Below are positions 20,394 to 58,203 of a stretch of 64,000 nt of DNA, one piece after another; the stretch's first letter is position 1, and each line of letters opens with the position of its first letter. The DNA comes from Thecaphora thlaspeos (taxonomy: Eukaryota; Basidiomycota; Ustilaginomycetes; Urocystidales; Glomosporiaceae). The notes under the pieces were generated by a model. The model worked only from the letters and a program-made list of their open reading frames with translations, was not told where the DNA came from and searched no databases. Position numbers and translations under genes: made by a program. The stretch spans positions 124,001-188,000 of the forward strand of contig UWYS01000019.1 of NCBI GenBank assembly GCA_900291925.1, given 5' to 3'.

Positions 20394-20752
20394 GGTGGCA
20401 ACCCTGGCTCACTGGCCGACTGGCCAGCTAGCACTGTAGCCTAGCGGCTCTGACGGGCTCAGGATGAGTGGTGCTGGCGTCGACGGCCAGGGTATGAAGG
20501 TGAAGCGGGGAAGAGCGGGGAGGCGAGGCAAGGAAAGGGAGCGCTGTGTCGCTTCTTGTAACTTTTCTGACATTGGCACCGGGGCGAGGAGGAGGTGAGG
20601 CGGCCAGAGGACCCTGCTGCTCTGCTGCCGCTGCCGCTGCTGCTGCTATCTCTGACTCTTTGGCTCTCGCCCCTCGCCCCTCGCTCTCGATGTGGGGCTT
20701 GCCTTGCTCAGTCAGCCCGACCAGGTCGCAGCGGCGGCACATCCGAGCCCCC

Positions 20753-20783
<31 letters not shown>

Positions 20784-20890
20784 TCCCGGAGCTGCCGCTT
20801 CTCCTTCCCTCGCCCCTCGCTCTCGATGTGTGGGGCTTGCCTTGCTCAGTCAGCCCGACCAGGTCGCAGCGGCGGCACATCCGAGCCCCC

Positions 20891-20921
<31 letters not shown>

Positions 20922-21028
20922 TCCCGGAGCTGCCGCTTCTCCTTCCCTCGCCCCTCGCTCTCGATGTGTGGGGCTTGCCTTGCTCAGTCAGCCCGACCAG
21001 GTCGCAGCGGCGGCACATCCGAGCCCCC

Positions 21029-21060
<32 letters not shown>

Positions 21061-21821
21061 TCCCGGAGCTGCCGCTTCTCCTTTCCCCTCGCCCCACGTG
21101 ACCTGGAGCAGCAGCAGCAGCGGCAGCAACAGCACGCCATCTGGCCTCTCGCCCCTCTCGTCCCTTTCCAAGAAACACGGACAAGCCTCTTCCGCTGCCG
21201 CTAGCCGCCGTCGTCGTCGTCGTCGTCTGTGCACCGTGACTGCACCACCCTTCCTCTCGAGCCAGCTTCCATCTATGCAGTGCACTGGGCCCTGACTCCT
21301 GATCGTCGTCTGATTCCCCCCTTCCGCGACCACGTTACCACGAGCGGCCCTGTCAGGCAGCTTGGCAGCCGCTGTCGTCGACCCCATCTTCTGCCTCTCG
21401 CCACTCACATCGTCCACAAGGCCAAACCCTAGGCCACTCGTACAGCACAGTCATCCGGCGTACGGTTGCGTCGCAAGCCACGTCGCTCCGACAACGCAGC
21501 TATAACGGGCCCGCTCTTGCTCCCTCCTCTCTCTCTCTCTCTTTTCGATTCGGTAGGCCCTCTCGTTAGCCTTCTGTCCATGATCCTTCTTTCGTCTTTT
21601 CATGGGGATGCGTGAAAACGTTCAACAGACGGCCACGTCGAAAATCAACAGAGTGATGGCGACTTTTGGCCAGGCTAGGAGAGCTCTGGCGATCGAAAGG
21701 GGAACGCGCCATCGGGACGGAGCGCTGGCGGCTCGGCGAGGCTCCGTCTGTGTGCTTTGCTTCGCACACGCGAAGCCGACGACGAGTGCGCCACTCGGGC
21801 AATCGTGCCGTGCCGATGCGT
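20394..21821. other. Spacer between NAC-alpha 3' end and SLC35F-like 5' end
   Basis: About 1.4 kb with a three-copy tandem array (listed separately), short CAG/CTG and TCG runs, and a CT run near 21529-21541. Long frames across the array are low-complexity shadows and no gene is supported. It should include the promoter of the SLC35F-like gene. Confidence 0.6.
20675..21086. repeat. About 138-bp tandem repeat, 3 copies, with long T-rich tract
   Basis: Three near-identical head-to-tail copies with period 138 bp (the first is 2 bp shorter). Each has CTTGCCTTGCTCAGTCAGCC, then GGTCGCAGCGGCGGCACATC, then a T-tract followed by CTTTTT repeats and CCCGGAGCTGCCGCTTCTCC. All pyrimidine tracts lie on the plus strand. 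The array starts about 280 bp upstream of the SLC35F-like start codon. Confidence 0.95.
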
Positions 21822-38939: not shown

Positions 38940-41016
38940 TTACAACCTCTCGAACACGGGCATATCGTCGATTGGCGCGTCGACCTCGGCCGTTTTTCCG
39001 CCCTCCAGTGCCTCGCCAGCGCCTTTGGCAGCGTCCTGTCCTCCTTGACCGCCTCGGAAGCGCCTCCACTTGGCGCCAGTGGGGAGGTAGACGCTGCGCT
39101 TGACCTGTCCCGGCTCGAGCATGGGCGCGACGAGGTAACGGTCGCCGTACATGTACTGGTCCTCTACCCTCCACGCCTGCTCGTCCTGCGGGAACTCGTA
39201 GAAGCAGGTGCGCATGACGGGCGATCCCTTCTCGTGCGCCTGCTTCATCAGCTCCCTGGTGTAGTCTCGCAGTGCTTCGCGGATCAAGAGGTACTTTTTG
39301 AGGATGACGAAGTTGGCCTCGCCGTAGCTCCAAACTTCGTTCTCGGCGCCGCTGCAGCACTCTGCGCCGCCCGTGGTGCCGTACTGCGGCTGTCGCGGCT
39401 CGCGGTCACCGTGGAGGCGCATCACGGGGCAAAAGGCGCCCCACTGGAACCAGCGGACCAGCAGCTCGCGGAAGGCCTCGTCGTTGGGATCGCCGCCGTG
39501 GAAGCCGCCAATGTCGGTCGTCCACCAGGGGATGCCCGCCAGACCCATATTGAGTCCGGCGGCGAGCTGGTTGCGGAAGCTTTCTCACGACGACGCAATG
39601 TCGCCGCTCCACACCAGCGCGCCGTATCGCTGCGAGCCTGCCCAGGCACAGCGGACGAGGTTGACGATGTTGTTCTGCCCCTCTTTCTCCTGCCCCTCGT
39701 AGAAGGTCTGCGAGTAGGTCACGGGGTATTCGTTGCCCACCGCCAGCAGCGAGCCCTTGTGGTAGCGGTAGTTGTCAAAGTCGTACCGGCTGTACTCGGG
39801 CTCCGTCTCGTCGAGCCAGAACACTCAGACGCCCGGGTCGAAGTAGTTGCGCTTGCAGATGTCCCAGATGTGGCTGCGTGCCTTGGGCGAGGTGAAGTCG
39901 GCGAGAAGACTGTTGCCGCAGAAGTCGAACTGTATAGGAGCTCCGCGCTCTGTGCGTACGAGGTGGCCCTTCTCGAGCAGCTCCTTGTAGTTCTCGGAAC
40001 GAACGTCGACGGTGGGCCAGATGCTGACCATGAGCTCGATACCCATCTGCTTGAGCTCGTCGACCATGGCCTTGGGGTCGGGGAAGTAGGTGGTGTCGCA
40101 GCGCCAGTCTCCCTGCTTGGGCCAGTGGAAGAAGTCGACGACGATGACGTCGATGGGGAGTCCAAGGCCGTAGTGCTTGCGCGCGACGGCGAGCAGCTCC
40201 TCTTGCGTCTGGTAGCGCAGCTTGCACTGCCAGAAGCCAAGCCCGTACTCTGGCATCATGGGCACGGCGTCGGTGGCGGAGGCGTAGGCCTCTTGGATCT
40301 CGCGGGGATAGTCGCCGGCGACGACCCAGTAGTCGAGCACCTTGAAGCTGCGCGACTCGAAGGACATGATGTTGCGCCGGAACATGGCGCGGCCGACCGA
40401 AGGGCTGTTCCACAGGATGCCGTAGCCGCGGCTGGGAGTGGGCAAAGGGTATGCTGGCCTGCGAGTTGCGGTGGGCCATCTCGAGGTCGCAACCCTTGAG
40501 ATCAAGGTAGGGCTGCTGGTACTGGCCCATGCCGTAGATGCGCTCGTCGACGTCCTGCGACTCGAAGCGCGCCGTGATGTGGAAGTCTCCGCCGGCGATG
40601 GGGACAAAGTCGCGCGCCTCGACGAGGATGGCGCTGCACTTTGGATCTGTCGGGTCGTCGCGGTTGCGCTGGTACTCTTCGAGCAGCACCTTGCCGTGCG
40701 AGTTGGTGATGACGAGCTTGCCGCGCTCCGAGATGGTGGCGGTGATGTTGCCGTTGATGCTGGAGCCGCCTTTACCGCCGGGGGCCGTGTCGATGTTGAC
40801 GGCGGCCGTGGAAGGTGAAGGAGGAGGCTGGCTCAGCGCCCAGTTCTCTGCGGGCAGCTCGGGGTATTGTGTGCAGCGGACACGGAGGGCGTTGTTGTGC
40901 CATGCCTCGACGACAAGCGTCTCGCCGCCGAAGCTGTGGCTGAGCTATGAATCTTGTTGGTCGAGCATCGTGTATGTAGTGGATGGGGAGGGTGGTTGTC
41001 ACTCTTGCACCAACAT
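38940..41016 (-). pseudogene. Glycoside hydrolase family 31 (alpha-xylosidase/glucosidase-like), disrupted
   Basis: Conserved GH31 sequence covers about 2 kb. It runs from FGGETLVVEAWHNNALRVRC through DVDERIYGMGQYQQPYLDL, MPEYGLGFWQCKLRYQTQEE, LPIDVIVVDFFHWP, nucleophile region VFWLDETEPEYS and acid/base region LVWSGDIASS, then GLNMGLAGIPWWTTDIGGF and MRTCFYEFPQDEQAWRVEDQ. Three lesions: a one-base excess near 40436-40446 between ASIPFA and GYGILWN, a TGA at 39827-39825 just before VFWLDE, and a TGA at 39587-39585 directly after IASS, where relatives have Trp. A possible short first exon (MLVQ) starts at 41016 with donor GTGACA. No signal peptide was seen. DNA here is normally CpG-rich, so decay looks recent; sequencing error at three sites is the alternative. 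Confidence 0.8.
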
Positions 41017-43248
41017 CGGGAGGCGTTACGGGTTGGGTGCTGCGGGCAGAAGGGAGGAGGGTGGGCGAGATACGACAGCGCTTATAAGGGGATGCAAAGG
41101 CGGCTCTTCGAAGGAGAAAGGGCGGAGAGTGATGTCGAAGGTTGCCGGGCAGAAGCTGCTCGCCGTCGCAGCCCTGATGGTTGAGAGGAGCCAAGAGAGG
41201 GACGGAACGAGAGCAGATTGCCGGGGCGCAAGAGAGGGACGCAGCCGGCTATGCAGCGAGCACAGCGGTCGGCGATCTGCTGCTCTGAGTGGATAAATGC
41301 CGAGGGGCGACCGGCGAACAAGGTGGAGACGGCCGAGAGAGCAACGGATGAGAGCGGTGCTGGACCTTGTGCGCGGGCAAAGGGGCGCGGGGGGGAGAGG
41401 GGTCGTTGAGAGCGAGATCTGGCGGTGCTCGAGCCATGTGCAGAAGATGTGGAGGCGGGTGGAGCGCGCAACACGCGCGGATGGCCAGCTTTACCCAGCC
41501 TAGCCTTTTTGTTTGGCGAGAGCGGCGAATGACAGGCGCTCGCCTTGACGCACGCACCCCCCCGCCAGCATGCCCTCACCCATGTTTCTCTGCGTCCCCA
41601 GCCAGCAACGCACCACCCTACCCAGATCCCCATAGACGCGCCCGGCCGCGCCTCTTTTCGCCTTCCGAGCCACCTCCTGGCAGCTTCATGCCTCCCTCTT
41701 CCACACTGCAACTCTGCACACCCATGGCCACTCACTACCAAGTGCTTGCAGAGTACTGTAGTGGAGTGTGATCCATTGCTGTCCCCTGTTGCCAGTCACC
41801 AGTGGTCTCTTGCCATGACCCTTGTTGCAGAAGCTGGACATGTGCATCCAAGCACTCAAGAAAGGAAGCAGTCCTTGCACTGGCATCTCTCCTTGTGCTT
41901 TGTCCATCAACCTCGTTGTGGTCAGATTTGCTGGGTGGATATCTTGTTGTCTGATGTTAGAGATGTCCAGTCTCTCATGTCTAGCCTTTTGTGCTCAGCA
42001 TGGGCTGCTCCCTGCTGATGTAGACATTGCAACAACAGTATGCTCCCTTCCGCAATTAGTGTGCCAGCCAAGCACAATGGAACAGCTGGATTTTGTGATT
42101 GCACAGCCAGGGTGTCAAAGGCAGGTCAAGCTCCTGCAGGGCAAGCCACCCTGTTGAGGGCATGAGAGGGCAAGAACAAACACCGAGACACTCCCTTTTC
42201 ACAACCCTTTTTGATGCCATTAAATTATTTTACCATGTTTCCCTTGTTTTCCCTGTTTGCACATCATCACCATGGCAGGCTAGGGTCAATGCAGGAGCGC
42301 TGCTGTTTGTTTGCATCTTTGAATTTGACCACATTGGCTGCTTCAACTTCACATGCAACAAACACCCTTTCCACCTGGTGTCATGGCAAGTTGAAAGGTC
42401 TTGACCAACCTAACAGACTTGCCTCCTCCCAGACATGAGCAGCGCAGTTTTGACCAGCACCTTGCAGAGGGACAAATCAGGGAAAAGACAAAAGATGTCC
42501 GGTCAAGCAACAGAGCACAGACATTTCAGCCACACCAGTCAAAGTGGACTCTTGAAGCGGAGCTCAATGGTGGCAGCATTAGCAGCAAGCATGCAACATG
42601 TCTTTGCTCTGCCACCTCCACTGTGTTTAGCTTCATGAGAAAGGTTGTGAGACTGCCTTGATTGCAAGGGCTGCAGCTCTACAAGACATGTCTATTGAGC
42701 TTTGCATGCTGCATCAAAATGCTGACCAGGTTGGTAATCATCCTGGACACAACACACTGACCCTCCTCTTCTCTTCCTCAGCTGGATTTCCATCTTCTTT
42801 TGACCCTGGGTCTGTTAGGTGCTTGGTCACATATGTGTCGGATGCCAGTTGGTTGACATGGCTCCCCTTTTTCCTGTTGCTGCCCTTGTCAGCCTCCTGC
42901 TCTTCTTCCACCATCACCCCCATCTCTGCCATCATCATCCATGCACTGGCAGTTGCTTCTTTTGCCTGCCCTCCTCCCCTTTGCCATGTTCCTTTGTTGT
43001 CGCATGTACTTGCTACTCTTGTTCCCATGCACCTTGCGCTCTTGCCTTGCTACCATACAGCACTTGACCAGCCGACCTTACAACCCAGGCTGGGAGCTTG
43101 CAGCAACTTCTTCCGGAGTTTGGCAACCCTTCTAGAATCTATGCTTGTTTCTCCTTCCCTCCCTTCTGGTGTGCTGCATCAACGAGTTGATGTCTGCCAG
43201 CATTTTCCCACTGATGTTCAAAAACCTAATCTCCTCTCTATACCCCAC
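41017..43248. other. Spacer crossing the left edge of the CpG-depleted island
   Basis: Up to about 41,690 the DNA is CpG-rich like the rest of the window and has no gene. From there it is CpG-poor and T/CA-rich, with no frame that I can tie to a protein family. A 264-codon plus-strand frame at 42658-43452 is compositionally odd and partly antisense to the GH39-like pseudogene, so it is not called. Confidence 0.5.
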
Positions 43249-44904
43249 TCACTCCTTGGCAAACTGAAGGCTTTGGCCAACCATGGTGGGAGAAACAGAG
43301 ATGTTGATGGTGTAGGCACTGTCGAGGTTCATGTTGAGGTTAATGGTGAGCTTATCATTGACAACAGCAACATTGGCATTGGAGAGGGTGATGGGGTTGT
43401 TGATGTGGCCTCCCTTGTAGAGGATCTCCTTGACCAGCACATGCAGCAATGACTTGCCCTGGTACATGGCAATGGAGCCAATAGAGCTGACCACAATGGG
43501 GTAGGAGCCCATCTGGCCACAGGTGCTAGAAAGGATGTGGACCAGGCCCTTGTCTGCCTCCTGCGTCATGTACAGGTTGTAGCAGTTTGACACCATGGCT
43601 CCAGCAAGCATGATGAGGCCCTTTTGCACCTGCATGTAGTATTTGTAGACATGCCAGTCTCCCAGTTTGTAGAACATTCCCAAGTCCGCATTTCCAACAA
43701 GCTTGGCCATGTTGTTGTGCAGGCCTTGCCACATGCCTCAGTTGGTGCACTGGCCATAGGCACCTGTACGCTTGAAGCGCTCCAGGAACCATATGCTGTA
43801 GGCAGGCATCTGCTTGTCAATGTAAGCATACTTGTTGATCTGCACAGGCCTATCCAGAAGTCCATAGATGGACTTGAAGTTCTGCAGCTCTCGAACAGAG
43901 ACAAATAGGTCATTGCTGCATTTGGCTGCATTCCGACCCAGGAGCTGGTGGAAGGCGTAGATATCTGGCTGGACATCTGTGTTGGCCTTGATGTTGTTGC
44001 CAAACTTCTGCCACCACATGTTGCTGCTGCTGGGTGGTGCCGTTGTTGTCAGGCCCTGGAGGGGCACCTGCATTTTGAACACAGCACATTACTTGCAGAA
44101 GGCATAATTGTATAACCAGATCCACTGGTCCTGGCTATGCAGCCAGAAGCTTTGGACATCCGGCTTGTTCCAGATGTCAATGTGCATGCCATGAAGCATG
44201 TTGTTGGCCTTGAGGTCCGAGATCAGTCCATCGAGGAACTGGCTGTACAGGTTGCAGTTTCTGTTGTCACAGGGGAACATGTTGGCAGCATTGTTGAAGC
44301 TATCTGCACCCCACAGGTCATGGGGCAGCAGAACAAACTCGGAGCTGTGAGCGTGGGCAAAGCAGTAGTTCTCCAGCGTAGAGTTGAAGCGGTCCTCATA
44401 TCCTTGGATGCTTGACACATAGCCAGGGAAGGTTTGGATCTGTGCACTGCTGGCATGAATGAAGTTGATGATGGACTCGTTGTACAGGCTGTCAGGCAGC
44501 ATGGAAGCTTTGTTGGGCATGTAGGCAGTATTGTTAGGACTGATGATTGCGGCAGGTGTCGCAGTGAGTGGCATGAAGGTAGTGGCTCAGGTCAGCTTCT
44601 GATGCACAAGGAGCAGAACAGTTGCATTGGGACAAAAACATACATCCCATAAATGATGCCAGCGTCTCTATCAGTCCACATAGGATCAGAGCGGGGAAGC
44701 AGCACAGGTGGTCAGTCTACTGCCGTTTTTCATCTGCAACCAAGATCTGATTTTGCCAAGTTCTGCTCACAGGTGCTTGGGGATGCCGCCTTTGATAGAG
44801 AGGTTGACATATCCTTGACCACCCAGGTTACTCTGAGCAAGGACCTGCATGGCAGGAACCACAGCAAGGAGGGCTGCAAGGGCATAGAGGAAGGTGGATG
44901 GCAT
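43249..44904 (-). pseudogene. Secreted GH39-like glycoside hydrolase, decayed
   Basis: Begins with a signal peptide (MPSTFLYALAALLAVVPAMQ then VLAQ) followed by YVNLSIKGGIPKHL. A GTGAGC donor leads to a tiny exon DAGIIYGM, after which the next acceptor is unclear. The main body matches a fungal clan-A family resembling GH39: YEDRFNSTLENY, EFVLLPHDLWGAD, LISDLKANNMLHGMHIDIWN, NMWWQKFGNNIKANTDVQPD and MPAYSIWFLERFKRTGAYG. Lesions are TAA at 44091-44089 and TGA at 43740-43738, the latter where relatives have Trp. The presumed acid/base motif reads WNKPD and the presumed nucleophile motif reads INKYA, with Lys for Glu in both. The family name is inferred from memory of motif order; non-function is well supported. 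Confidence 0.75.
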
Positions 44905-47411
44905 GGTATGATGTTGTGCGTCAGATGCGAGGAGAAAGGAATGATCTGGGAAGGGTGATTGGTCTGGTGAGGAGGAGCAGTCTTGTGCGGATTGGAATGT
45001 GTGGAACAGATGGTGGTAATGGCAATATGAGATGACTGGATGAAAGCCCTGTATTTGTATCAAGAAGACCAAGTTATGGCAGTTGGCGTTGTCTTGTGGC
45101 TCAATGTCTATCATTGAGCCACAGTGAAGTAGCCAAAATGCCCCCTTCTGGAGTCTGGAAGACAAGAGCAGCATGGAGGAGCTCTGAGACTCTGGCAACA
45201 AGCATTAGGAAGCCTGTGTGATACCGCACTACCCTACAGCATGACAATAATGCCATACAAGATCAGGGCCAAGATCCAGCTGAGCCTTCCTTGGACCAGC
45301 AACCCTTTTGCTTGACTCTAGCAGTACTCTTTTCTGCTGATGTGCCGGACCTGGCAGTGGGTTGCCGGTGCTGGAGCCATGTTGTTGCCTGAGCTGAGGC
45401 CCCGCTTTGCCTGACCTGTGACAAGAATGGAGCTGTACATGTCTGTTATGACCCTGCCAGCCATGCAGGGACCAATTGGGCCTGGCCAACCTATTGACCC
45501 CTGTCGAGTACCAACCAGGCTTGGGGCGCTCCCCCTCTGGCTCCAAAGGCAAGCTGGCTGCGGCTGTGGGAATACCGGGGGAGGCCTGTTTGGCCGACAT
45601 GCAAGGTAGGGCTCGACCCAGAGAGGGAGGCCAGGCAGCCCCCCCGCGGGAGCCCCTTTGTCCATAAGTAGTAGAGACAAAGCTGTGGGCCCTACGGCTT
45701 CCCTTGTCAAATGTACTATACTGTCTTCTAGATAGCAAGGTATGCTGTTGACACCTGATTGCCCTTGGCCTCTCCTGCGAGCCCCTACCTAGCCTGTGGC
45801 TGCTTCTACGGTATCCTCAAGTCCCTGTGGGCCATGCCTAACAACATTGGCAAGTCATCTGTTACCATTGGGCGAGATTGTCGAACCCAATGCTGCCCCT
45901 GCAGCCTATTGCTGTACAATGAGGTCAATAAATTGCCCCTTGGTAAATCTTTCTCTTGTCTACATAACACCTTTGAGAACTTTCTTTGATGGAATGCTTG
46001 CTGGTTACTGTATGTGGGAAGTCAGGTGGTTTTGCGGATAGACAAAGCAGCCCAGGGAAGGGGTTGAGTTACAGCACATGCTCAAAAGTGCCCCAGAAAC
46101 ACACAAGGATGCAGGCAGAGCGGCGAGCAAATAAGTGTCGACACCCGCAGCTCTGGCCAATGCGCTCAGCTGACCCCACCATGCCTGCCAAGCTTGTTCT
46201 TAGATCAAAGCTACTGTACGCTGCCATTTGCTGCTGCAACAACGGCTCCTCTGTCATCTACACAGCTGAATAAGGATCCCATTGATGCATCTGCGAGACC
46301 TTCACTCACACTTGCTCTACCAGGGCCAAAGCTCCCAAAGCAACTGCACAGCAGTGCTCAAAATGCTGCAGCAAAGTCCCACATCAGCCGCATCTGACTC
46401 AACTCTAGCCATTCCTTGTGAGCAAATGCAAAGTAGAGCTTGATTCCCATGCCCTCAACAGCCTAAAAGCATGTGCTGAAAGGAAGGCTACATAATTAAT
46501 GCCGCCCCATGCCATCAACAACAGCCACAAGATTCCCAGCATCACCATTTACTGTAATGTCGTACACTTGTCAACTGCCAAGTCACCTTCCCCTACCTTT
46601 TGACTTGTGTCTCTTGACCCTTAACCCTTGAGCCTCACTTCTGTACACCTTGCTCAGCATTGGGCAGTGACCGGGCACCTCCAGCTCCCCTCACACTGCA
46701 CAAGTGCATACTGTAAAACAGTCTTTGTTGTCTCAATCTGCCCCATTTGCCTTGCTTGTCATCCGCTTCACAGAGCACTATGAGCAATGCCAAGTACCCT
46801 GTGGGCACCGACACTGACCCCAGTCGCTTCTCCAGGGACTCAGGACCAAGGAGCAGCAGCTATCAAGTTGCCAGTTGGGCCCCTTCTCCACATTTTGCTT
46901 GAGACAGACTGCAGCAGCATGATAGATGGCCAATAGAGATGTCCACCAGCATTCGGTGCCCTTCATACTGTATGCTCAAGCCAACCAGTGACCTTTGCTC
47001 CCTGCTTCAATCAAGTGACTATCTGTACTAGCAGAGGCTCACCAGTCCACAGCGTCAAGGCCCTACAGTGCTGGCTGCAGGGCCCCTTGGACATCTGTTA
47101 TGTAACAGGCTTGAGAACATTGGAATTGTCCTATAGTATTACCACAGTAGATGTGACCTTTGACTGTTTTGTGGTACCTTGCATATGCAAAAGGACCGCA
47201 CCTTGTTCATAGCTAAATAACTAAAGAGAAAGATGAGATGGTATAGGACCTATATCTGAGTTGAAGCATGCCCCATCATCCCAACCCACTCACCATCTCA
47301 ACCCATCCACCACCAGCTCTTTCATACAGCGCTGTCCCCACACCATCTTTTAAAGCCTCTCTGCCCAACAGTCATCTTCTAAGTCCACCAACCTTTCTAT
47401 GACTCAGATCA
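44905..47411. other. Island interior without recognisable gene, with a CpG-richer patch
   Basis: 2.5 kb of low-CpG DNA upstream of the GH39-like and alpha-glucoside permease relics. About 45,440-45,660 is GC-richer with more CpG and could be a younger insertion. I found no protein motif, tRNA or clear repeat in this stretch. Confidence 0.5.
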
Positions 47412-49107
47412 ATGGAGCACATATTGGCACTCGAGTTGAACAGCCCTGCAGCCATCATCACCTCCAAGAAGCGAGAAGTTGTTGCTAGGCTCAATCAAGA
47501 TCATGACTACATCATGCAGTTTGTCACCAAGGCCAACCAGGATGCGCACAGCCTCACCGTCTGACAGGCCCTCCGCAGGCACAGCAAGGCTGCTGCATGG
47601 TTCACGGTAGGTAGCAGCCACCTCAGGCCAGCCCTAAGGAAGAAAACCAGGAAGGGAGAGGCTGACTGAGGCTTCTATTTCATGTGTGCTTCCATCGATT
47701 TCAGGTGCTTTCTGCTGCCCTCATCATGAAGGGATACAACCTGGTTGTGATCAACTCCTTCTTTGGACAGGTAAGTCTTGCTCCAACCACTTGAACAGCT
47801 GCAACATTGGCTGGCAGAATGCTAATAATAGACCCCTGCTCTTTCCGTGCCCTCTCACGCTGTCTCTACAGTTGAAATTCCTCAAGAACTTTGGACAGCC
47901 CAATGGCAACAGCAGCTACATGCTGTCCTCAGCATGGCAGATGGGCTTGTCCAACTTGGCCCTCTGTGGAGAGCTAATTGGTCTTGCTATCAATGGCTGG
48001 GCTTCAGACTGCTTCCGCTACTGCCATACATACATGGCGGCAATGGTGGCCATGGCTGCCTGTGTCTTCACCACATTCTTTGCCAAGAGCCTGCCCATCC
48101 TCTTGCTTGGCAAGGTGCTGTGCGGTATTCTGTGGGGTATCTTCCAGATGCTCACAACTGCCTATGCCACCGAGATCTGCCAAATGGCACTTTGGCGCTT
48201 CCTCACAACCTGGCTTACAAGCTTCCCTTTGCGCTGCAGTGTGTCTGGCCTGTACTGCTCTTCCTCTGCGCCTACTTTGCCCCCAAATTGCCCTGGTGGC
48301 TGGTGCAAAAGGGTAGGGACAAAGAGGCCAAGATGCAGATCCGACACCTCATCAATGCTGACCAGCTCTTGGAAGTCAAGGTCCAGGAGGAGCTGGCACT
48401 GATCAAGCACACCAACGCAATTGAGGAGGCCAAGACGGCTGGAGCCACCTTCAACTGCTTCCAAGGCACCAACCAGTGCTGCACCAAAATTTCTTGCATC
48501 ATCTGGGCAATCCAGTGGCTCAGAGGCGACCCCGCTCATTGGATTTGCCGTTGTCTTCCTCCAGAAGGCCAGACTGAGCGAGAAGAACTCCTTCAATTTT
48601 AACCTCAGCATGAACTGCATGTACATTGTTGGCACCATGGTGTTGTAGTTCCTCATGACGTGGTTCAGATGCAGGTTGCTCTATCTCTTTGGTCTAGTGA
48701 TCATGGGTGTCACCTGCCTCATCATTGGTGCACTTGGCATCAAGGAGACCTAGTCAACCTTGCTTGCTATCAGTGTCATGATCCTGCTCAACCTGTTGTA
48801 CAAAATCAGCATTGGACCGGTCTGTTACACCCTGGTCTTGGAACTCTCTTTGAACAGCTTGCAAACCAAGACAGTTGTGCTGACTTGCACCACATACAAC
48901 CTCACCAGACTTGTCACCAACACCATCCAGCTGCGCATGATTGCCTCCAACCAGTGGGACTGGGGTGCCAAGTCTGGCTTCTTCTGGCTGTGCAGCTGCT
49001 TCATCATGTTCCTCTATTGCTACCTCCGCCTCCCCAAGACCCGCAACCAAAACACTGGTGAGCTCGACCTTCACTTTGAGAACAGCATCGCTGCAAGGAA
49101 GTTTTAG
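47412..49107 (+). pseudogene. MFS alpha-glucoside (maltose-type) permease, decayed
   Basis: Remains of a 12-helix sugar:H+ symporter of the MAL11/AGT1 type. Likely original exons start at 47412 (MEHILALELNSPAA), 47705 and 47872 with intact splice sites (GTAGGT/CAG, GTAAGT/CAG). Recognisable blocks are QALRRHSKAAAWF, IMKGYNLVVINSFFGQ, SSAWQMGLSNLALCGELIGL, INGWASDCFRY, KLPFALQCVWP, APKLPWWLVQKGRDKEAKMQ, GATFNCFQGTN and GPVCYTLVLELS. Lesions: TGA 47562-47564 before QALRRH, a frame-breaking internal deletion near 48205-48220 removing roughly 30 codons of a membrane segment, a frameshift near 48520-48535, TAG 48646-48648 (Trp position) and TAG 48751-48753. It is clearly non-functional. Confidence 0.85.
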
Positions 49108-50914
49108 TTGATGCTCATCAACCAATTCCACCTTGGCTTTTTGCACACAGCAATAGCCTTGGGTGCAAGGACCTTGGACAGCCCTTTGCCCAACAACAAG
49201 GTCGCATCTGAGAAGCAGCAGTGTGATTGAGGGTAGCTTTTGTTGCAATTTGCCTCATGTCCCCTTTTTGCTCTGGTCTACCTTGACACAGTCTCCAGGG
49301 ATAGGGGGCTGTGTTGACCCATTTGGCATCAGGATGTACTCCGCTTCCATTCAGGCTTGCAAGTTGCTTGGTCTGTTCCAACAAGAATGCCTTTACTCTT
49401 TCCTATTGCTTGGTTTCATCTCTTGGAATGTCACAATGGTTTTGGCAGCGCCTTTCATTTGCAGAACGTGAATCTCATTCTTGGCTGAGCTCTTTTGTTT
49501 GTCTGTTGCTCTTTCTATCTGCAGCGGTCTTGACAACTTCTTTGATCAACAGCTTCAACATGATACCGAGATGTTGGCTTGCACATTGTGCTTGTTGACA
49601 TCTGCTTGGCCACTAAGTGTGAGATGGTAGACTACTTTTAAGTCAAGGACACCTAGAATGCCACTGGTGCGGGAACACTGGATAGGTAGCAGGCAAGACC
49701 TCGTCGATCCGCTATAGTATGTTCAGGCCCTGATTAAGTTTCAGGGTAAAGAAGGAGTCCCAAAGCCGACAGAAAACTTTCTCGACAATGAAATTGAAGC
49801 ACTCTGCCCCCACAATGTGGGCCAGATCACGATGCTGATTTGTATGTACTAAATTTTCAAACTGCTCTAAAGCATGAGCAGAAGGAACAGAAATAGCTGA
49901 CCGCTGACGCAAAAGTTGGGTGTGTTAGGAAGTAGCAAAGGGCTGGGTGTGTCAGAGCAGGGCTCTGTTCCTTGCACCCAGTAGTCACCATTGGAATGCC
50001 TGGAATCAACAAATGACGCCCAAGAAAGGGCCTTGGCAATGATGGTTGGCGGTTCCCCAAGGTCTAGACCTATGCCGCATTGATGTGTGTCAACATGCTT
50101 GCACAGCCAAAGTTGGAAGTTGCACTTCACCATGACCTGGAATAAGATTGCCAAAGGAGAGTTGTGTATGGCTCACACTTGATTTGCTAGCCTGGTGTTG
50201 TAATGGCAGTAAGCTTCTGCATGTCCATGCTCTGGCAACCTATGGGGACCGGTCTTACTGCCTAAAATAATCCTAGATGGGTGTCACAGCTGGGCAGTGC
50301 AGGCAGCAACTTGGTCCCTGGCAAGCAAGTCTCTTGTCAGGGTACAGAGACTTGCTTGCTGCAGGACCAAGTTGCTGGGGAACAGCAGGTCCAGGATAAC
50401 AGTAAAGATAATCACACATGGTGGACAAACAACATGGCCAGAGAGCTGGATGGTGGACAGGAATTGGGAAGGACCATTGAGGCAAGGTACATCAAGCTTG
50501 TGCGCACCAGGTGTTGCCTGGACAAGTGGGGCAAGGGCTATTGTTACTGGGTGCAACCTTTGGGCAACAGGATATTAAGGCAAGGTGGCCGCTTGTATGT
50601 ATAACTAAGCCACTCTATGGACAAGGACTGGATCTGGCATCCAGTCTAGTCAATACAGTCATAACAAGCTTGCCACATCACCTGTGGAGAGCCTGACAAC
50701 GCATTGCTAGCATTGCCAGCATTGCCATAACTGTTGACATACATTGCAACATTGACACAAACCCCACCATCGGTGCCTGCAAGCATTGCCAACCAAATCC
50801 GACCACCACCAAGTGTCGCTCTGTCCTCTGATGTGGGCACCAAAGAAGTAATGGCCCTCAAGTGAGAGCACCTTCCTCAGCAGGGAGCAAGTAGGCCTGT
50901 AGACTTTCTCCCAG
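49108..50914. other. Island interior between two transporter relics
   Basis: 1.8 kb of CpG-poor DNA. Short frames only, none with a recognisable motif. The missing N-terminal half of the downstream permease relic was looked for here and not found. Confidence 0.5.
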
Positions 50915-52123
50915 CCAGGCAAGTTGCTGCACCTGATGACTGCTGCTGTTACACCTACCTACTTGGGCATTTGCAACACAGATGGTTGGCTTGAATCCAA
51001 GGTCCAAGCCTATGGAACCACCCACCTACTGGCTGGGTCCAACAGCATTGCAGCACTCTACTGTGGCAACGCACTGTCCAATGCATTTGGTGGCCTCCTT
51101 GCCATTGGCATTGTCAAGGGCCTCAATGGCATGCACAGCATTGACAGCTGGAAATGGATCTTCATCTGCAAGGAAGCAGCAACAATTGGCATTGCGGTCA
51201 TTGCAATGTTACTGCTCCCTGACTGGCCCAAGACAACAAGTTGGCTGTTAGAGGAGAAGAAGGCTCTGGCACAGCACCGGCTCACTGTTGATACAGGTGC
51301 CAAGAATGTGCCAAAGGAGAATATCTGGGAGGGCTTCACTCTGTGCATCAAGGATGCTTTGGTGTGGATCTGCATAGTCTTGCAGCACTGCAATATGGTT
51401 GGCACATTGTTCATGTGAGTTGTCACACATTGTTGTCTGCCAGCATGGAGGAGGGCAAGGGGAAAGGATGCTAGAGCCTCTGCTGCCCTTGGTCACCTGG
51501 TCTAACAATATTTCGCCTCTTTGCTTTTCCATTGGCTTCCTCAGACTGTGCCCAACAGCTACTTTTTCCCATCAATTGTGTAGATGCTGGGCTACAGACT
51601 GATCAAGATGCTGCTCCTTACTTTGCCTCCCTTTGTGCTGGTATTTGTGCTGTTGATCCTCAATGCCTGACACTCTGGTTACACCAATGAGCAAATGCTA
51701 CACATTGCCTTGCTGCTTGTCATCTCAATTGTTGGTAACATCCTGACCATGATGCTGCACACAACTGCAGGTTGGTACATGGTCATGTTCCTGCAGGTCA
51801 TTGGACTGTACTCAGTCTACAGCATCATCCTATCCTGGATCAGTGCCATCCTCCCTTGTCCATGGAACAAGAGGGTGGTTGCACTGGCACTGTGTACAAT
51901 GCTTGCCAATGCTTCCCACTTCTACACCAGTTACCTCTACTCTGACAGTGACAAGCCCTACTACATAGTGGGTGGCAGTGTGTTGGTCAGCTTCATCTTG
52001 TTTGCTATCCTCACTGCCCTTGCACTTGGCTGGGTGCTCAAGAGGAAGAACAGGGAGCTGACAAAGATGGAGAACAAGACTGGTGTGAATCTGATTGGCT
52101 TCAACTTTTACTATGTCTACTAA
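50915..52123 (+). pseudogene. Dal5/allantoate-type anion:cation symporter (MFS), 5'-truncated and decayed
   Basis: The C-terminal two thirds of an allantoate/nicotinate-type permease. Blocks: LSNAFGGLLAIGIVKGLNG, SWKWIFICKEAATIGIAV, LLLPDWPKTTSWLLEEKKAL, EGFTLCIKDALVWICIVLQH, NSYFFPSIV, LGYRLIKMLLLTLPPFVLVF, IILSWISAILPCPWNKRVVA, ASHFYTSYLYSDSDKPYY and LGWVLKRKNRELTKME. The N-terminal helices are missing or unrecognisable. Lesions: TAG 51581-51583 after FFPSIV and TGA 51668-51670 in LNA-stop-HSGYTNE, where the family has Trp. A GTGAGT donor at 51415 and an AG at 51544 do not join in phase, so an indel or splice-site loss is likely there. Confidence 0.8.
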
Positions 52124-52745
52124 AGGAGAGAAGAAGGCACATAAGACTTGCCAGCTTCCTTGCCTGCTGCCACCTCTGCCAATGTTGGCTCTACAGGCAT
52201 ATCCATAGTGCAGTCCCCTTCCTCTAGTCCCTTTTATGTCACCCATGCCAACAATCCAATATTGCTAATGTGCTTCCCAAACATTCCATTTCTATCCCCT
52301 TTCCCAGCTGACCCTATTGTATACAAGACAAGATCTGACTTTCACGCTGCCTGGTCCTCTGCCACTTCTGATTGGGAAGTTGAATGAAATTATGACGATC
52401 AATGGAAGGCACGAATCCCGCCCGATTCAGGCCACCCGATGTTCAATCCGATTGAGCGTCTTGCGGCGTATCTGAAAAGCTGGCGTCGTCCCGTGCGCAG
52501 TTCCGCACCGGCTCGCCCTCGGCCCGCGCCCGGACCGCCATTCACCACTGAGCCGGACGCACGCATCCCCGGCCGGACAAGCTTCAATCAGTCTTCTCCC
52601 CACCACCCCTCTCTCTCTCTTCCTTACACCTCACTGCGCCCTCTTTCAGCCCCATCGAGCCCTGCCTCACCTGCACCGCCATAATATACGCCCAGGCCCG
52701 GCCTCGCCTTGCCACGCCAAGCAAGCCGCCCCTTCGCGCCCCTTG
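52124..52745. other. Right edge of the CpG-depleted island and VWA8-like 5' flank
   Basis: CpG is almost absent to about 52,390, then returns abruptly within a few bases. No gene is seen. The edge shows no obvious repeat or duplicated target site by eye. Confidence 0.55.
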
Positions 52746-55700
52746 ATGCTGGCTGTCCTGCGTCGCCATCGACCGCACCCGCACCTAAGCCGCCTCGCTC
52801 TTCCTGCCGTTTCTTCGTCTTCGTCTTCGTCTTCGTCTTCGTCTTCGTCTTCGTCTTCGTCTTCGTCTTCGTCTTTGTCTTCGTCGCCCTCGCCCTCGTC
52901 CTCGGCCTCCACCTTCTCCTCCTTTTTATCGCCGCCGCCGCCGCCGCCGCCGCCGCATCGCCTCAATCGGGCGCCATGTCCAGACTCCCCCACCCTTCAC
53001 CACCACCTCGACACACTCTCCCGACGCTGCCTCCTCGATCGATTACACCGCGCCTGACGCACCTGAAAAGCCCCTCGGCACGCTCAAGCTCGGGCCCAAC
53101 GTCAAGATCCCGGTCTTTGAGGCCCGCACGCCGTCGCGCCTCCCCTCGGAACGCCTCCTGCTCAACCTCGACGACCCGCTGGTGCTCTAGCACCTCGAGT
53201 TCCTCTGGAAAAAGTGGCAGCTCCGCCAAGACGTCATCCTCTTGGCTCCGCCTGGTCCCTACGCCCGACGCCTCAGCCTCACCTTTGCCGCCTTGCTCCA
53301 GCTGCCCTACGAGTAGATCTCCTTCCACCGTGACATCGGCGAGGCAGAGATGCTCCAGGCCCGCTCCCTCACCGCCAACGGCAGCCTCGTCTTTGTCGAC
53401 GGACCCGTCGTCCGTGCCATGAAGCATGGCCACCTCTTTATCCTCGAGGGCGTGGAGCGCGCTGAGCGTGGCGTCACGCCCATCATCAACAACATCCTCG
53501 AAAACCGCGAGCAGAACCTCGCGGACGGCACCCACCTCCCCGCCGACAAGGTAGAGGCCGCCCGCCGCCACGCCGCGATGGGCAAACTAGGCGCAGATCG
53601 CTTCATTCCCGTCCACCCAAACTTCCGCGTCATCACCATCGGCACGCCCATCCCGCCCTACAAAGGCCACCCCTTAGATCCGCCGTTCCGCTCGCGCTTC
53701 CAGGCGCGCTGGGTTGAAGGGTCGATCGATCACATCGTCCCGCTCGAGCCCACACCGCTCGCCAAAGACCTCTCCCGCCGCTGGTATAACCTGGCTGCCC
53801 TACTGCGCTTCCACACCACGCTGGCACAGGGCAACGAGGTGGTTCAGCCCACGCTGCGCCTTCCCAACCTCCCGACGACGGCGACGCCGCTGCTGGTGAG
53901 CTCGATGATGTCCTTGGATGCAGTCTGCTAGGTCTTTACGATATTGACGTATCAATCACTTCCTTCATCGAAGCACGACCTCACGCTCGCCTTTCCGCCA
54001 ACGCAAGAGCTTTTGCCGATCGTCGATGAGGACGCCTCCGCCGCTGTGGCAGACGGCGAGGGCGGAAAGGCAGGCGGGATCGCCGTTTTCGCGCCGAAGC
54101 GTCAGCAGAAGGAGGCGGATGCGCCGGCGGCGTCGTCATCTCAGAATGTCGCCACCTCGACGCTGTCTGCGCTCAGCGCAGCCTACCCGCAGATCTGCAC
54201 TCTCGACAAGGACAAGCACCAGACGCTGAGCGATCCTTTGGCCCAGCTGCGCCTCGACCAAGGCCTGGGCGTCGCCGACGATTCGTTGCGCGAGACGGGC
54301 GCAGGGTACATGGGTTATGTCGTCTCCGCTATCGAGCGCCTTGATGCCGGCCGGGCCAAGGTGACGTTCGCCAGCGGCGCAGGCGCTGCCTCGACCGTCA
54401 CCCTCGAGGTGCCCTGCGGTCCTCTGCCGCTTGCACCCCTACCTCAACTTGGCGCCACGGCCGGTAGGGATGTGGTGGTCACGCCGCGCGTTCTCTCCAC
54501 CTTCAGCCGCCTGGTCCAGCTCCACGCCATTGGCCGCGACATGTGCCTGTTACCTGGCTCCTTTGACGCTGCCGCGTCGTCGTCGTCGTCCGGCGATTCG
54601 TCCTCTGCCGCTGGCGCCGCCGCCCACAAGCCGTCGTCGTCGACGACGACTTGCATCTCGCTGATGGCTTCGGCGCTCGGGTACGCGTACGAGTCCGTCT
54701 GGCTGTGGAAGGACCTAGGCGGTGGCGAGCTGCTGATGCGCAGATCGACCGGCGCCGACGGCCCGACCGGCTGGGAGCCCGCGCCGCGAACGAGCGGCGC
54801 GATGCAGGACAAGCTGATCCATTTCGCCGGCGTCGAGGTGCTGGGCCCGACGCTGAACTCGCTCTCGAGACTGCTGCAGGATCGCGAGAGCGAGCTCTGG
54901 AACGGACAGAGGCTCAGCCTTGGAGGCAACGACGTTGCCAAGGGCGCCGATGCCTCGCCGTCCATCTCTGACAGCTTTCGAGTCGTCCTGACCGCGACCA
55001 AGTCGGCTGGATGGCTGAGCGAGGAGTCGGCGACGCTGTTTGCCACGTGCATCACTGCGCCAATGGACGCGGCCGAGGAGCGCGAAATCGTGCTGCGCCG
55101 CACGGGCGTGTCGCCGGAATCTCCTTCGCTGAAACGCCTGCTCGCGTTTGTCCAGCGCTACCGCGACCTCAGCGCCGACCCGATGCTGGCCAAGTCGTGC
55201 AAGCTGGGCACGCGCCAGGTGATCCGGATGGCCGCGCGTCTGGCGCTGGAGCGCGACGTCGACGGGCCCGAAGGCGACGATGGCGACTGCGACCTCTACG
55301 GCCTCGTCTGGTGGTCGCTGCTGGTCGACTTCATGCCGAGCACGGTGCGCGAGGTGATTAGCAACCTGCTTCAGGAGTGCAAGATCCACCCGCCGGGGGC
55401 GGAGGGCGCGTTCCGCTACGTCCCCAAGCTCCGTCTCGGCGATCCGGAGGTCGTTGCCGGCGGCAAGACGCTGCTGGACGGGAGGAGGATCCGGCCGGCA
55501 TCCAGCCAAGGCGACGAGGGTGACGTGGTGGTCCACCCGTCGTTCCGGCTGGTGCTGCTCTCGAACCGGCCCGGCTGGCCATTCCAGGGCAACAGCATGG
55601 TCGAGGTGGTCGGCGAGGGCTTCTCGTGCTACGCCGTCTCGAACCCGGACATCGAGTCCGAGGTGCGCCTGCTGCACGCGGCCGCGCCCTCGGTCGACAT

Positions 55701-57293
55701 GGATTTGCTGCGCAATCTCGACGTGGCCTTCCACGACCTGCGCGACGGCTTCGAGGTCGGACTGATCAACCACCCGTACTCGCTGCGCGAGTTGCTGCAC
55801 CTCGTCGCGCACGTGGAACAGTTCCCCGACGAAAGCCTGACGAGCGTGCTGCTCAACACGCTCACTTTTGACCTGCACCGCCCCGAGGCGATACGGTGGG
55901 TGGTCGAGACGCTGCGAAAGCGCGGATTGCCCGTTGACGACCTCGACCTCGAAGCGCTGCGCAACCGGCTGGAACCGGCGAAGCCGCTCAAGGTCACGTT
56001 CGAAGGACAGGTCGACTACGATCCCAAAAAGGCCGGGCGAGCGACGGACCTCGACAAGCCCAAGGACGGGAAGGAGGATCCCGACAACGAGCCCCATGTC
56101 GGAGGAAACCAGTGGCGAGGCGGTGTAGGTGGACGAGATACGGATGGTCTTGGCGGGAGAGGAGGAAAGGGGCGGCTGTACAAGGGCCACAAGATCCACC
56201 AGGTCTCGCAGAAGCTCAAGGTCGACGTTCCCGACCACATCAAAAAGCAGGCGCGCGCCGCGCTCGAGAAGCAGCTCAAGGAGAACGGCCTGGCGCCGCA
56301 CGAAGCGGTCAACATGCACGAGATCACGCAAAAGGTGGCGCCATACGTTCAGCACCTGTCGAACGTGCTGCAGGACCTCAAGGCCAACGAGGAGGAGCGC
56401 GCGTGGGTCTCGAGGCAGCAGGACGGGGAACTCGATGAACGACGTCTGAGCGAAGGCCTGATGGGCGAGCGGACGATCTTCAAGAGGCGGAGCGAGAGAC
56501 CGCCCGAGGTGGGCGCGCCGATGTTCAAGCCCAAGAGGATCAGACTGGTGCTGGACGCGAGTGCGAGAATGTATCACATGCAGTTTGACGGACGGCTGCA
56601 GAGGGAGCTCGAGGTCTGTTTGGTAAGTGCTCGTCGTTGTTGGGGACCGCGTCTTGTTGGAGACCTCGCTGGCCGTTTCTTCGTTAAGCTGTACCACTGA
56701 TTTGTTCCTTCGTCCTTCCCCTTGGCACGGCTGCAGATGGTCATGCAAGCCTTTGCGCGCGTCGACTCGTCGCGCACTCTGGCGACTCGCCGGTGATTCC
56801 GCTGGTCTCGATCGGCCGTCTGCCGCGGTCAGAGGGGGACCAATATCGCATCCTACGCTCGATTGTCTCGCACACGCAATACTGCGATTCGGGCGACCAC
56901 ACGTTGAAGTGCATCGAACAGTCGATCTGAGACGTCAAGAAACGCCTACCTCCCGACTGGTCGGACCCTCACTCTGCCGTCGCGCCTTCCGACGAGATGG
57001 ACGAGAATGTCGGGATGTACGCGGAAGGAGAGGGGGACGAAGGTACGGCGGATGATTATTTCGTCATTGCACTGAGCGATGCCAACCTGGCGAGGTACGG
57101 TATCAACCCGCAGACGTTGTCGAGAGTGTTGAAGGTGGACGGAAAGGTAAAGACGTCGGTGATCTTTATAGACAAGGGCAACGAGGCGGTGTACACGGCT
57201 AAAGAGTTGCCCGGGAAGGCGTATGTAGCGAGGGAGATGAGCGATGTCCCGAGGATCTCGAGTACGATCCTGACGGCGGGCTTGTCGGCGTAG
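52746..57293 (+). pseudogene. VWA8-like mitochondrial AAA+/von Willebrand factor A protein, disrupted
   Basis: VWA8-type giant AAA+ ATPase with C-terminal vWA domain. An ATG at 52746 begins an Arg-rich, presequence-like stretch that is out of frame with the conserved part, so the start is uncertain. Conserved blocks: HLEFLWKKWQLRQDVILLAP, HLFILEGVERAERGVTPIIN, HPNFRVITIGTPIPPY, PLDPPFRSRFQARW, SFRLVLLSNRPGWPFQGN, EVGLINHPYSLREL, KRIRLVLDASARMYHMQFDG, DYFVIALSDANLARYGI. Lesions: TAG 53188-53190, TAG 53314-53316, a deletion or frameshift near 56760-56775 before HSGDSPVIP, and TGA 56928-56930. A further TAG (53929-53931) could be the end of a 36-nt in-frame intron starting GTGAGC at 53896. An intron 56623-56736 remains perfect. 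The vWA metal motif reads DASAR rather than DxSxS. A 918-codon stretch is still open. Confidence 0.82.
52812..52875. repeat. TCTTCG hexanucleotide repeat
   Basis: About ten copies of TCTTCG run from 52812, the last ones imperfect (TCTTTG). They lie in the presumed N-terminal region of the VWA8-like pseudogene and read poly-Ser in that frame. Confidence 0.9.
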
Positions 57294-58203
57294 GTGAGTG
57301 GAGAGGCTGTAGAAACAAAGAGTAATGCCACAGACGTTCGATATCAGCTTGTGCTCGTGGTGCGAGACGACACGGGACACTCCATGCCATGGTAAATGCT
57401 GTTTGATGGGGAGGAAGAGGTGGACAAGGATGCTGTGAGCCGTCTATTCAACTGGGGCGTCGCCATGAGACGGAATGGAAAAGGGTCCCTTGTCGCTTAG
57501 CGGGGGGGCCCCCTTGGTCGTGTGAGCATGTCGTAAGCTGTGGCGTTGCTTGTCTCGGCTTGCGGAAGAAGCGAAGAGACGGAATGGAAAAGGGCCCCTT
57601 GTCGCTTAGCGGGGGGGCCCCCTTGGTCGTGTGAGCATGTCGTAAGCTGTGGCGTTGCTTGTCTCGGCTTGCGGAAGAAGCGAAGAGACGGAATGGAAAA
57701 GGGCCCCTTGTCGCTTAGCGGGGGGGCCCCCTTGGTCGTGTGAGCATGTCTAAAGCTGTGGCGTTGCTTGTCTCGGCTTGCGGAAGAAGCGAAGTAGTGG
57801 TAGAGTCTCCTCGTCTGCCTCTGCATGGTGGAATCTTAATCCGGCTCTACACTTGCTTCGAGTTGAGTAGTGGAGCCGAGTCGGCGTAGACGCTGCGCTG
57901 GAACAAGGGGGCGACTCGGCGTAGACCCTTGCAGGCCAGGCAGCAATGGCGAGACATGAAAAAAATCGCTGGTGGGCGCGCACGGCGCTGGGCCGTACAG
58001 TAACTACGTGTTTGCGGTGGGTCGGTGTTGGTATCGGCAGCGGCAGCAGCGCGAGGTACGTCAGCAGCCAGCATCATCATCTCTTCGGACAGCCGCCGCC
58101 GCCACAGCAGCAGCAGCCCTCCCCTCTGGCAGAGGGCGAGCTCGACCCCCATCACCACCGCCGCCCAGGTCGGGATCGCGCCGCCACTTCTTCGCCGCTC
58201 GCC
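57294..58203. other. Spacer between VWA8-like pseudogene and coiled-coil gene
   Basis: Contains the 109-bp tandem array (listed separately) and the likely promoter/leader of the downstream plus-strand gene. The frame of that gene is open back to 57946, but the extra 86 codons look like leader rather than protein. Confidence 0.55.
57467..57797. repeat. 109-bp tandem repeat, 3 copies, each with GC-rich palindromes
   Basis: Copies start with GAGACGGAATGGAAAAGGG at 57467, 57576 and 57685. Each carries AAGGGCCCCTTGTCGCTTAG and then GCGGGGGGGCCCCCTTGG, two GGGCCC-centred palindromes able to form strong hairpins, and ends TCTCGGCTTGCGGAAGAAGC. The first copy has AAGGGTCCC. Copies are almost identical. 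Confidence 0.95.

Follow-up and report, generated by a model that had tools for sequence, protein, structure and literature searches.

Repeat-induced point mutation (RIP) of Ascomycota is a C-to-T decay of repeats, with leakage into the sequence alongside. That basidiomycete transposons undergo CpG decay is already known, and the accessible text of PMC4352252 describes CpG-only C-to-T signatures, with a DNMT1/Masc2-type enzyme and without RID, in three of them (Microbotryum, where the signature is TpCpG, Puccinia and Melampsora). Other comparable systems are described for Rhizoctonia solani AG8, Cryptococcus neoformans and Ustilago hordei, and prior knowledge is also drawn from excerpts of two reviews of DNA methyltransferases (DNMTs; PMC7862722, PMC13297926) and of PMC5381629 and PMC12543289. 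Here we consider a sharp-edged, CpG-depleted island in Thecaphora thlaspeos. It lies in a stretch of 64,000 bp (contig UWYS01000019.1, positions 124,001 to 188,000; C19:124001-188000 in our contig numbering), which we call the window and which we compare with a genome of 20,591,595 bases in 32 contigs. The evidence points to a fossil domain of CpG methylation.

The island shares with RIP the C-to-T decay of repeats and the leakage beside them. Unlike RIP, it loses CpG and not CpA, and it does so over a whole domain and not centred on repeats; no RID is identified in the genome, though the DNMT1-like enzyme found there was not compared with RID. As in Microbotryum, Puccinia and Melampsora, according to the accessible text of PMC4352252, the C-to-T change is restricted to CpG; here, however, the loss takes in entire sharp-edged domains, with apparently single-copy genes among their contents, and the TpCpG-only preference of Microbotryum is missing. 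R. solani AG8, as far as the available part of PMC4014442 goes, also shows CpG-to-TpG change in coding DNA that is commoner near repeats, but as heterozygous SNPs (single-nucleotide polymorphisms) across the genome, whereas the changes here are fixed, near-complete and confined to domains, with normal CpG outside. A DNMT5 homologue and transposon remains are common to this genome and to the DNMT5-maintained heterochromatin of C. neoformans (PMC13297926, in excerpt); unlike that fungus, T. thlaspeos also has a DNMT1-like enzyme, and its methylation is deduced. In U. hordei an unusual regime of raised substitution flanks long terminal repeat retrotransposons and methylation has been considered as one cause, but the elements themselves are reportedly unaffected, whereas in the island CpG is lost from the elements as much as from their neighbours (PMC9603552, whose main text, in the form accessible, has no occurrence of the words CpG and RIP). 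Among the open-licence papers listed by our searches, none described, for this group, discrete domains with sharp edges and single-copy genes inside them.

We begin with the composition step. A maximal-scoring segment search and a two-state hidden Markov model (HMM) return the same single island (Table 1), with a segment score of 749.6 against 12.0 for the second-best segment of the window; none of 1000 permutations of 200-bp blocks reaches that score (maximum 100.5). The ratio of observed to expected (o/e) CpG is 0.20 in the island and 1.08 outside, with 137 CpG remaining, while TpG rises from 1.04 to 1.63, CpA from 1.00 to 1.57, and GC falls from 0.628 to 0.506. Per base, the gain in TpG and CpA (0.0808) amounts to 86% of the loss of CpG (0.0935), so the excess of both dinucleotides that the initial annotation had seen near the left edge (70 in 41701-42000, a count we reproduce) extends over the island as a whole. 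The two are present in nearly equal numbers (1096 TpG, 1042 CpA), which means that both strands were hit. Within the island the fraction CpG/(CpG+TpG) varies with the preceding base (A, 0.068; T, 0.084; C, 0.119; G, 0.203); outside it is 0.55-0.69.

Both edges are steps, each narrower than about 50 bp, with no gradient. The initial annotation had placed the island at 41690..52395; its right edge stands and the left one moves to 41667. Its hand counts of CpG hold at the left edge, where 27 (41401-41700) give way to 1 (41701-42000), and at the right edge they hold for the inner 300 bases (1 in 52096-52395), the next 300 (52396-52695) containing 30 and not 29. Also borne out is its statement that coding relics and spacers are depleted alike: the o/e is 0.22, 0.26 and 0.06 in the three relic genes and 0.20 in the spacers. 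Between 46001 and 50000, where the repeat search recognised nothing, every 500-bp row has an o/e of 0.19-0.40. Neither tandem repeats nor repeats within 40000-54000 include any that delimits the island, and at the thresholds used the window contains no Rfam family and no tRNA. Two tandem arrays lie in the CpG-rich flanks, at 20671-21095 (138-bp unit, 3.1 copies, 98% matches) and at 57467-57794 (109-bp unit, 3.0 copies, 98%).

Table 1. Features of the island and its flanks (positions in the window)
Feature	Position	Strand	Evidence or remark
CpG-depleted island	41667..52395		maximal-scoring segment, HMM, permutation
Left edge	41617..41716		CpG: 7 in outer 50 bp, 0 in inner first 200 bp
Right edge	52346..52445		CpG: 1 in inner final 100 bp, 5 in outer first 50 bp
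Repeat fragment	42818..43161		matches at two places, on contigs C9 and C8
GH39-like (beta-xylosidase type) dead gene	43273..44850	-	homology; two in-frame stops
~400-bp repeat, 11 CpG	45444..45843		copy at locus L020 retains CpGs
Sugar-transporter (Sugar_tr) dead gene	47412..49107	+	frame changes, missing stretch, stops
~675-bp repeat (50282-50956) with 90-bp extension	50282..51047		copies at loci L007 and L024 retain CpGs
MFS-type transporter relic, two open reading frames	50903..52123	+	weak match; 5' part overlaps repeat sequence
GH31 (alpha-xylosidase/alpha-glucosidase type) gene, left flank	38943..40968	-	CpG-normal; start codon ~0.7 kb from edge
VWA8-like AAA ATPase gene, right flank	52885..57287	+	CpG-normal; start ~0.5 kb from edge

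The repeats inside the island allow a direct look at the substitution, because some of their copies elsewhere in the genome still hold their CpGs. We use the four CpG-richest copies (loci L007, L024, L020 and L010), the remaining aligned copies, with 0-16 CpGs, being little informative. Of the CpGs present in these copies, 45 of 53 (L007), 32 of 41 (L024), 24 of 32 (L020) and 21 of 27 (L010) read TpG or CpA in the island. Transitions outside CpG, given as forward and then reverse, are 18/285 and 18/267, 33/287 and 21/259, 7/188 and 8/136, and 28/297 and 26/281 in the same order. The rate of CpG loss thus exceeds that of non-CpG transitions by a factor of 40 (L007), 16 (L024) and 40 (L020). C-to-T change is confined to CpG, on both strands, and these alignments indicate that the substitution is CpG-specific deamination rather than a general drift in base composition. 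Copies of the repeat with the 90-bp extension often lie near remains of Copia reverse transcriptase, and 7 of 14 RVT_2 loci are within 3 kb of a repeat match. The copies at L007 and L020 are CpG-normal within CpG-rich surroundings and are possibly young or unmethylated insertions. Inside the island, the ~400-bp repeat is richer in CpG than the island mean, as though inserted after much of the depletion.

We turn our attention to the dead genes. The GH39-like relic keeps a single frame through 445 codons apart from its two stops; a genome search with one piece of it returned that piece alone, so that the gene is apparently single-copy, and its best relative is PFL1_03995 of Pseudozyma flocculosa PF-1 (64% identity over 95%). 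Against this relative, 60 amino-acid changes are of the type expected from CpG loss and 5 of the reverse type; of the relative's 17 arginines 5 are kept and 10 have become His or Cys. Two conserved glutamates, one in an NEP and one in an NEY motif, which we take to be catalytic in this clan, have both become Lys, each following an AAC codon, as expected from CpG-to-CpA change. The sugar-transporter relic, likewise an apparently single-copy host gene, has one paralogue for the piece searched (44%). Compared with it, 49 changes are of the CpG-loss type and 8 of the reverse type, and at one arginine position the relic has TGA; one short exon piece is excluded from this alignment for its low score. 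In the MFS-type relic, the first open reading frame (ORF) has a Sugar_tr match just under the Pfam cut-off and 25-39% identity to intact relatives, while the second has no Pfam match.

The next question is whether the island stands alone. Among the 20 loci excised around copies of its repeats (some of them overlapping), 18 contain an island stretch, the exceptions being L007 and L020, and at L024 the island adjoins the repeat copy rather than covering it. Of eight 10-kb tiles chosen beforehand by position none contains one, so that islands go with transposon remains. Nor does an island cover any of nine Sugar_tr gene loci, though at two of them an edge lies no more than about 1.1 kb from the match. 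Sharp edges recur at 15 places outside the window, mostly around retrotransposon remains; three of these places (L014, C15:135834; L015, C9:346815; L017, C24:1779) are near-identical ~3.7-kb segments of about 98% identity, island edge included, and with one of them 1.8 kb from a contig end they are perhaps subtelomeric duplicates. Eight of 20 ORFs in these islands that were scanned with Pfam matched a family, six of transposon type (reverse transcriptase, RNase H, integrase, chromo and Tc5, two below the cut-off) and two of host type. The host-type ones are CpG-depleted remains of a pectate lyase with no second copy in the genome (L011:1-621) and of an amidase with one distant relative (L021:2959-3690); host genes seem to have been buried in islands repeatedly. 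At L041 (6220-6612, also in L010), a CpG-rich gap of about 0.4 kb separates two depleted stretches.

Machinery that could act on CpG is encoded in the genome, as a search for the methyltransferase genes suggested by the initial annotation makes clear. It has two PF00145 methyltransferase loci. One is a DNMT5 homologue in an open frame of 2575 codons; the part read matches the structures 7r76, 7r77, 7r78 and 7t02 (E 6.9e-210, labelled Rad8), which we take to be Cryptococcus DNMT5. The other, on C21, is a putative DNMT1-like gene split by introns, scoring 110 bits with DNMT1 and 53 bits with 9bap/9baq, presumably DIM-2. One match each was also found for Argonaute, Pre-SET and chromo-shadow. The excised loci of the machinery genes are CpG-normal.

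Putting these observations together, we consider it likely, with a probability of roughly 0.8, that the island is the fossil of a heterochromatic domain in which heritable CpG methylation, seeded by transposable elements, was followed by deamination. According to this model, retrotransposon insertions between resident genes would have seeded 5-methylcytosine at CpG sites, and DNMT5 and DNMT1 would have maintained it. The methylation would have spread across the interval, single-copy genes included, and stopped at two stable borders, about 0.7 kb upstream of the start of GH31 and about 0.5 kb upstream of that of VWA8. Methylated CpGs would then have deaminated to TpG or CpA on both strands, 16-40 times as fast as other C-to-T changes occur, and this bias would have contributed largely to the ruin of the island genes, whose silencing may have preceded their death. 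The discrete methylated and deaminated domain proposed in the initial annotation is thereby supported, given the CpG-specific transitions, the equal hits on the two strands, the methyltransferases, the other islands and a gene that apparently decayed in place.

The GH39 gene is that gene. GH31, its neighbour across the left edge, has as its best relative PFL1_03996 of P. flocculosa (72% over 68%), whose tag follows that of the GH39 relative (PFL1_03995). Consecutive tags suggest that the two were already neighbours in the ancestor, in which case the GH39 gene most likely was a resident that decayed where it stood; the left edge would then run between two old neighbours. The VWA8 frame, too, is closest to P. 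flocculosa (69% identity over 58%), then to other Ustilaginomycotina, but this relative's tag belongs to a different P. flocculosa annotation than PFL1.

Both flanking genes look broken. Many of the window's other frames are long and uninterrupted. GH31 contains three in-frame stops and changes frame once; VWA8, whose start is extrapolated from residue 25 at 52957, has three in-frame stops at residues present in the P. flocculosa protein and two more in intron-like insertions. At least one stop of VWA8 and one of GH31 are a TGA after C, as could arise if the ancestral codon was CGA, and the stops could mark recent pseudogenes or assembly errors. CpG o/e of the two genes is nevertheless near 1 in 500-bp rows, so the death of a gene does not by itself strip its CpG. 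A second consequence concerns the borders, which cannot be credited to working genes; whatever sets them would be something other than present gene activity. The idea that active promoters set the borders was dropped because of these in-frame stops.

Alternatively, the same decay could come from an active RIP-like mutator that detects repeats before meiosis, leaks into adjacent single-copy DNA and prefers CpG over CpA. The initial annotation had offered such a process beside methylation, and the repeats in the island, the high rate ratio (as much as about 40), the CpG-type RIP-like bias reported for basidiomycetes (PMC4352252, in part) and the hypermutation that is commoner near repeats in R. 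solani AG8 (PMC4014442, likewise in part) all speak for it. Against it, the depletion stays flat over 46001-50000 and over apparently single-copy DNA, the edges are steps rather than gradients, and the decay does not centre on repeats, since relics are depleted like spacers and the GH39 piece is apparently single-copy. One repeat, with 11 CpG in 400 bp, is even denser in CpG than the island on average (137 in 10,729 bp). The classical preference for CpA is also absent, CpA being enriched and CpG the dinucleotide lost, and only two methyltransferase loci were found, of which the DNMT1-like one is nearer to DNMT1 than to 9bap/9baq. We therefore favour this process less and regard it as unlikely.

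A foreign or already depleted block might instead have been inserted whole, by introgression, segmental duplication or an assembly join. Such a block would have sharp edges, and at L014, L015 and L017 a depleted segment has been duplicated along with its edge. The best relatives of GH39 and GH31, however, are in the same fungus under consecutive tags, the repeats of the island are native to the genome and 15 places besides this one have sharp edges, which leaves an insertion very improbable. Even less credit can be given to selection or another compositional force acting without methylation, such as AT-biased drift, gene conversion or a composition specific to centromeres. The lower GC of the island would fit such a force; yet non-CpG transitions are roughly balanced against the CpG-holding copies and CpG alone moves. 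A centromere would occur once per chromosome, whereas the repeats of the island lie at several places on single contigs (for example C3, C9 and C15).

Several points weigh against the methylated-domain explanation itself. The methylation at its core is one that we infer. GH31 and VWA8 carry in-frame stops with their CpG content normal, so genes of this region also broke without being stripped of CpG, and the island genes may have died for reasons shared with their broken neighbours; the two stops of GH39, at a Tyr and a Trp of its relative, are not of the CpG type. GH31 itself leans toward CpG-loss changes, 22 against 8 reverse (p 0.016; difference from the 60:5 of GH39, p 0.022; about 80 codons between two of its pieces are omitted from the count, and two pieces overlap by about 20 bp), so that part of the GH39 ratio is a background of the lineage, although GH31 keeps 34 of 49 arginines and has 1 of 49 changed to His. 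The adjacency of GH39 and GH31 in P. flocculosa is suggested by tag numbers, and the longest contig is not the same in the database entries of the two relatives (855,747 and 1,245,094). Finally, at the eight edges with an assignable gene (the two of the window included), the gene turns its 5' end to the edge in six and its 3' end in two, a weak relation; L042 is left out because its neighbour, with a GCR1_C domain, may be a transposon gene, and other edges have no confident gene.

If the island is a fossil of methylation, a further reading, tentative and in our judgement doubtful, is that heterochromatin islands are an epigenetic route of gene loss, in which a transposon inserts, methylation extends to borders that held to within about 50 bp until most CpGs were gone, and deamination kills the enclosed single-copy genes faster than ordinary mutation does outside. 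With the same reserve, this route would take in the glycosidase and the transporters here and the pectate lyase and the amidase of other islands. CpG decay would then serve as a fossil record of past methylation sites. Sharp, mappable edges, an apparently old gene pair and the fact that only the inner one of its two broken genes is CpG-stripped would allow the spread of silencing from transposons to be studied from sequence, and such edges would also bear on what stops silencing and on whether silencing drives gene loss. The island would also document an outcome of methylation in Ustilaginomycotina, a group in which the model species, Ustilago maydis, reportedly has no DNA methyltransferase genes (PMC7862722 and PMC13297926, in the parts accessible).

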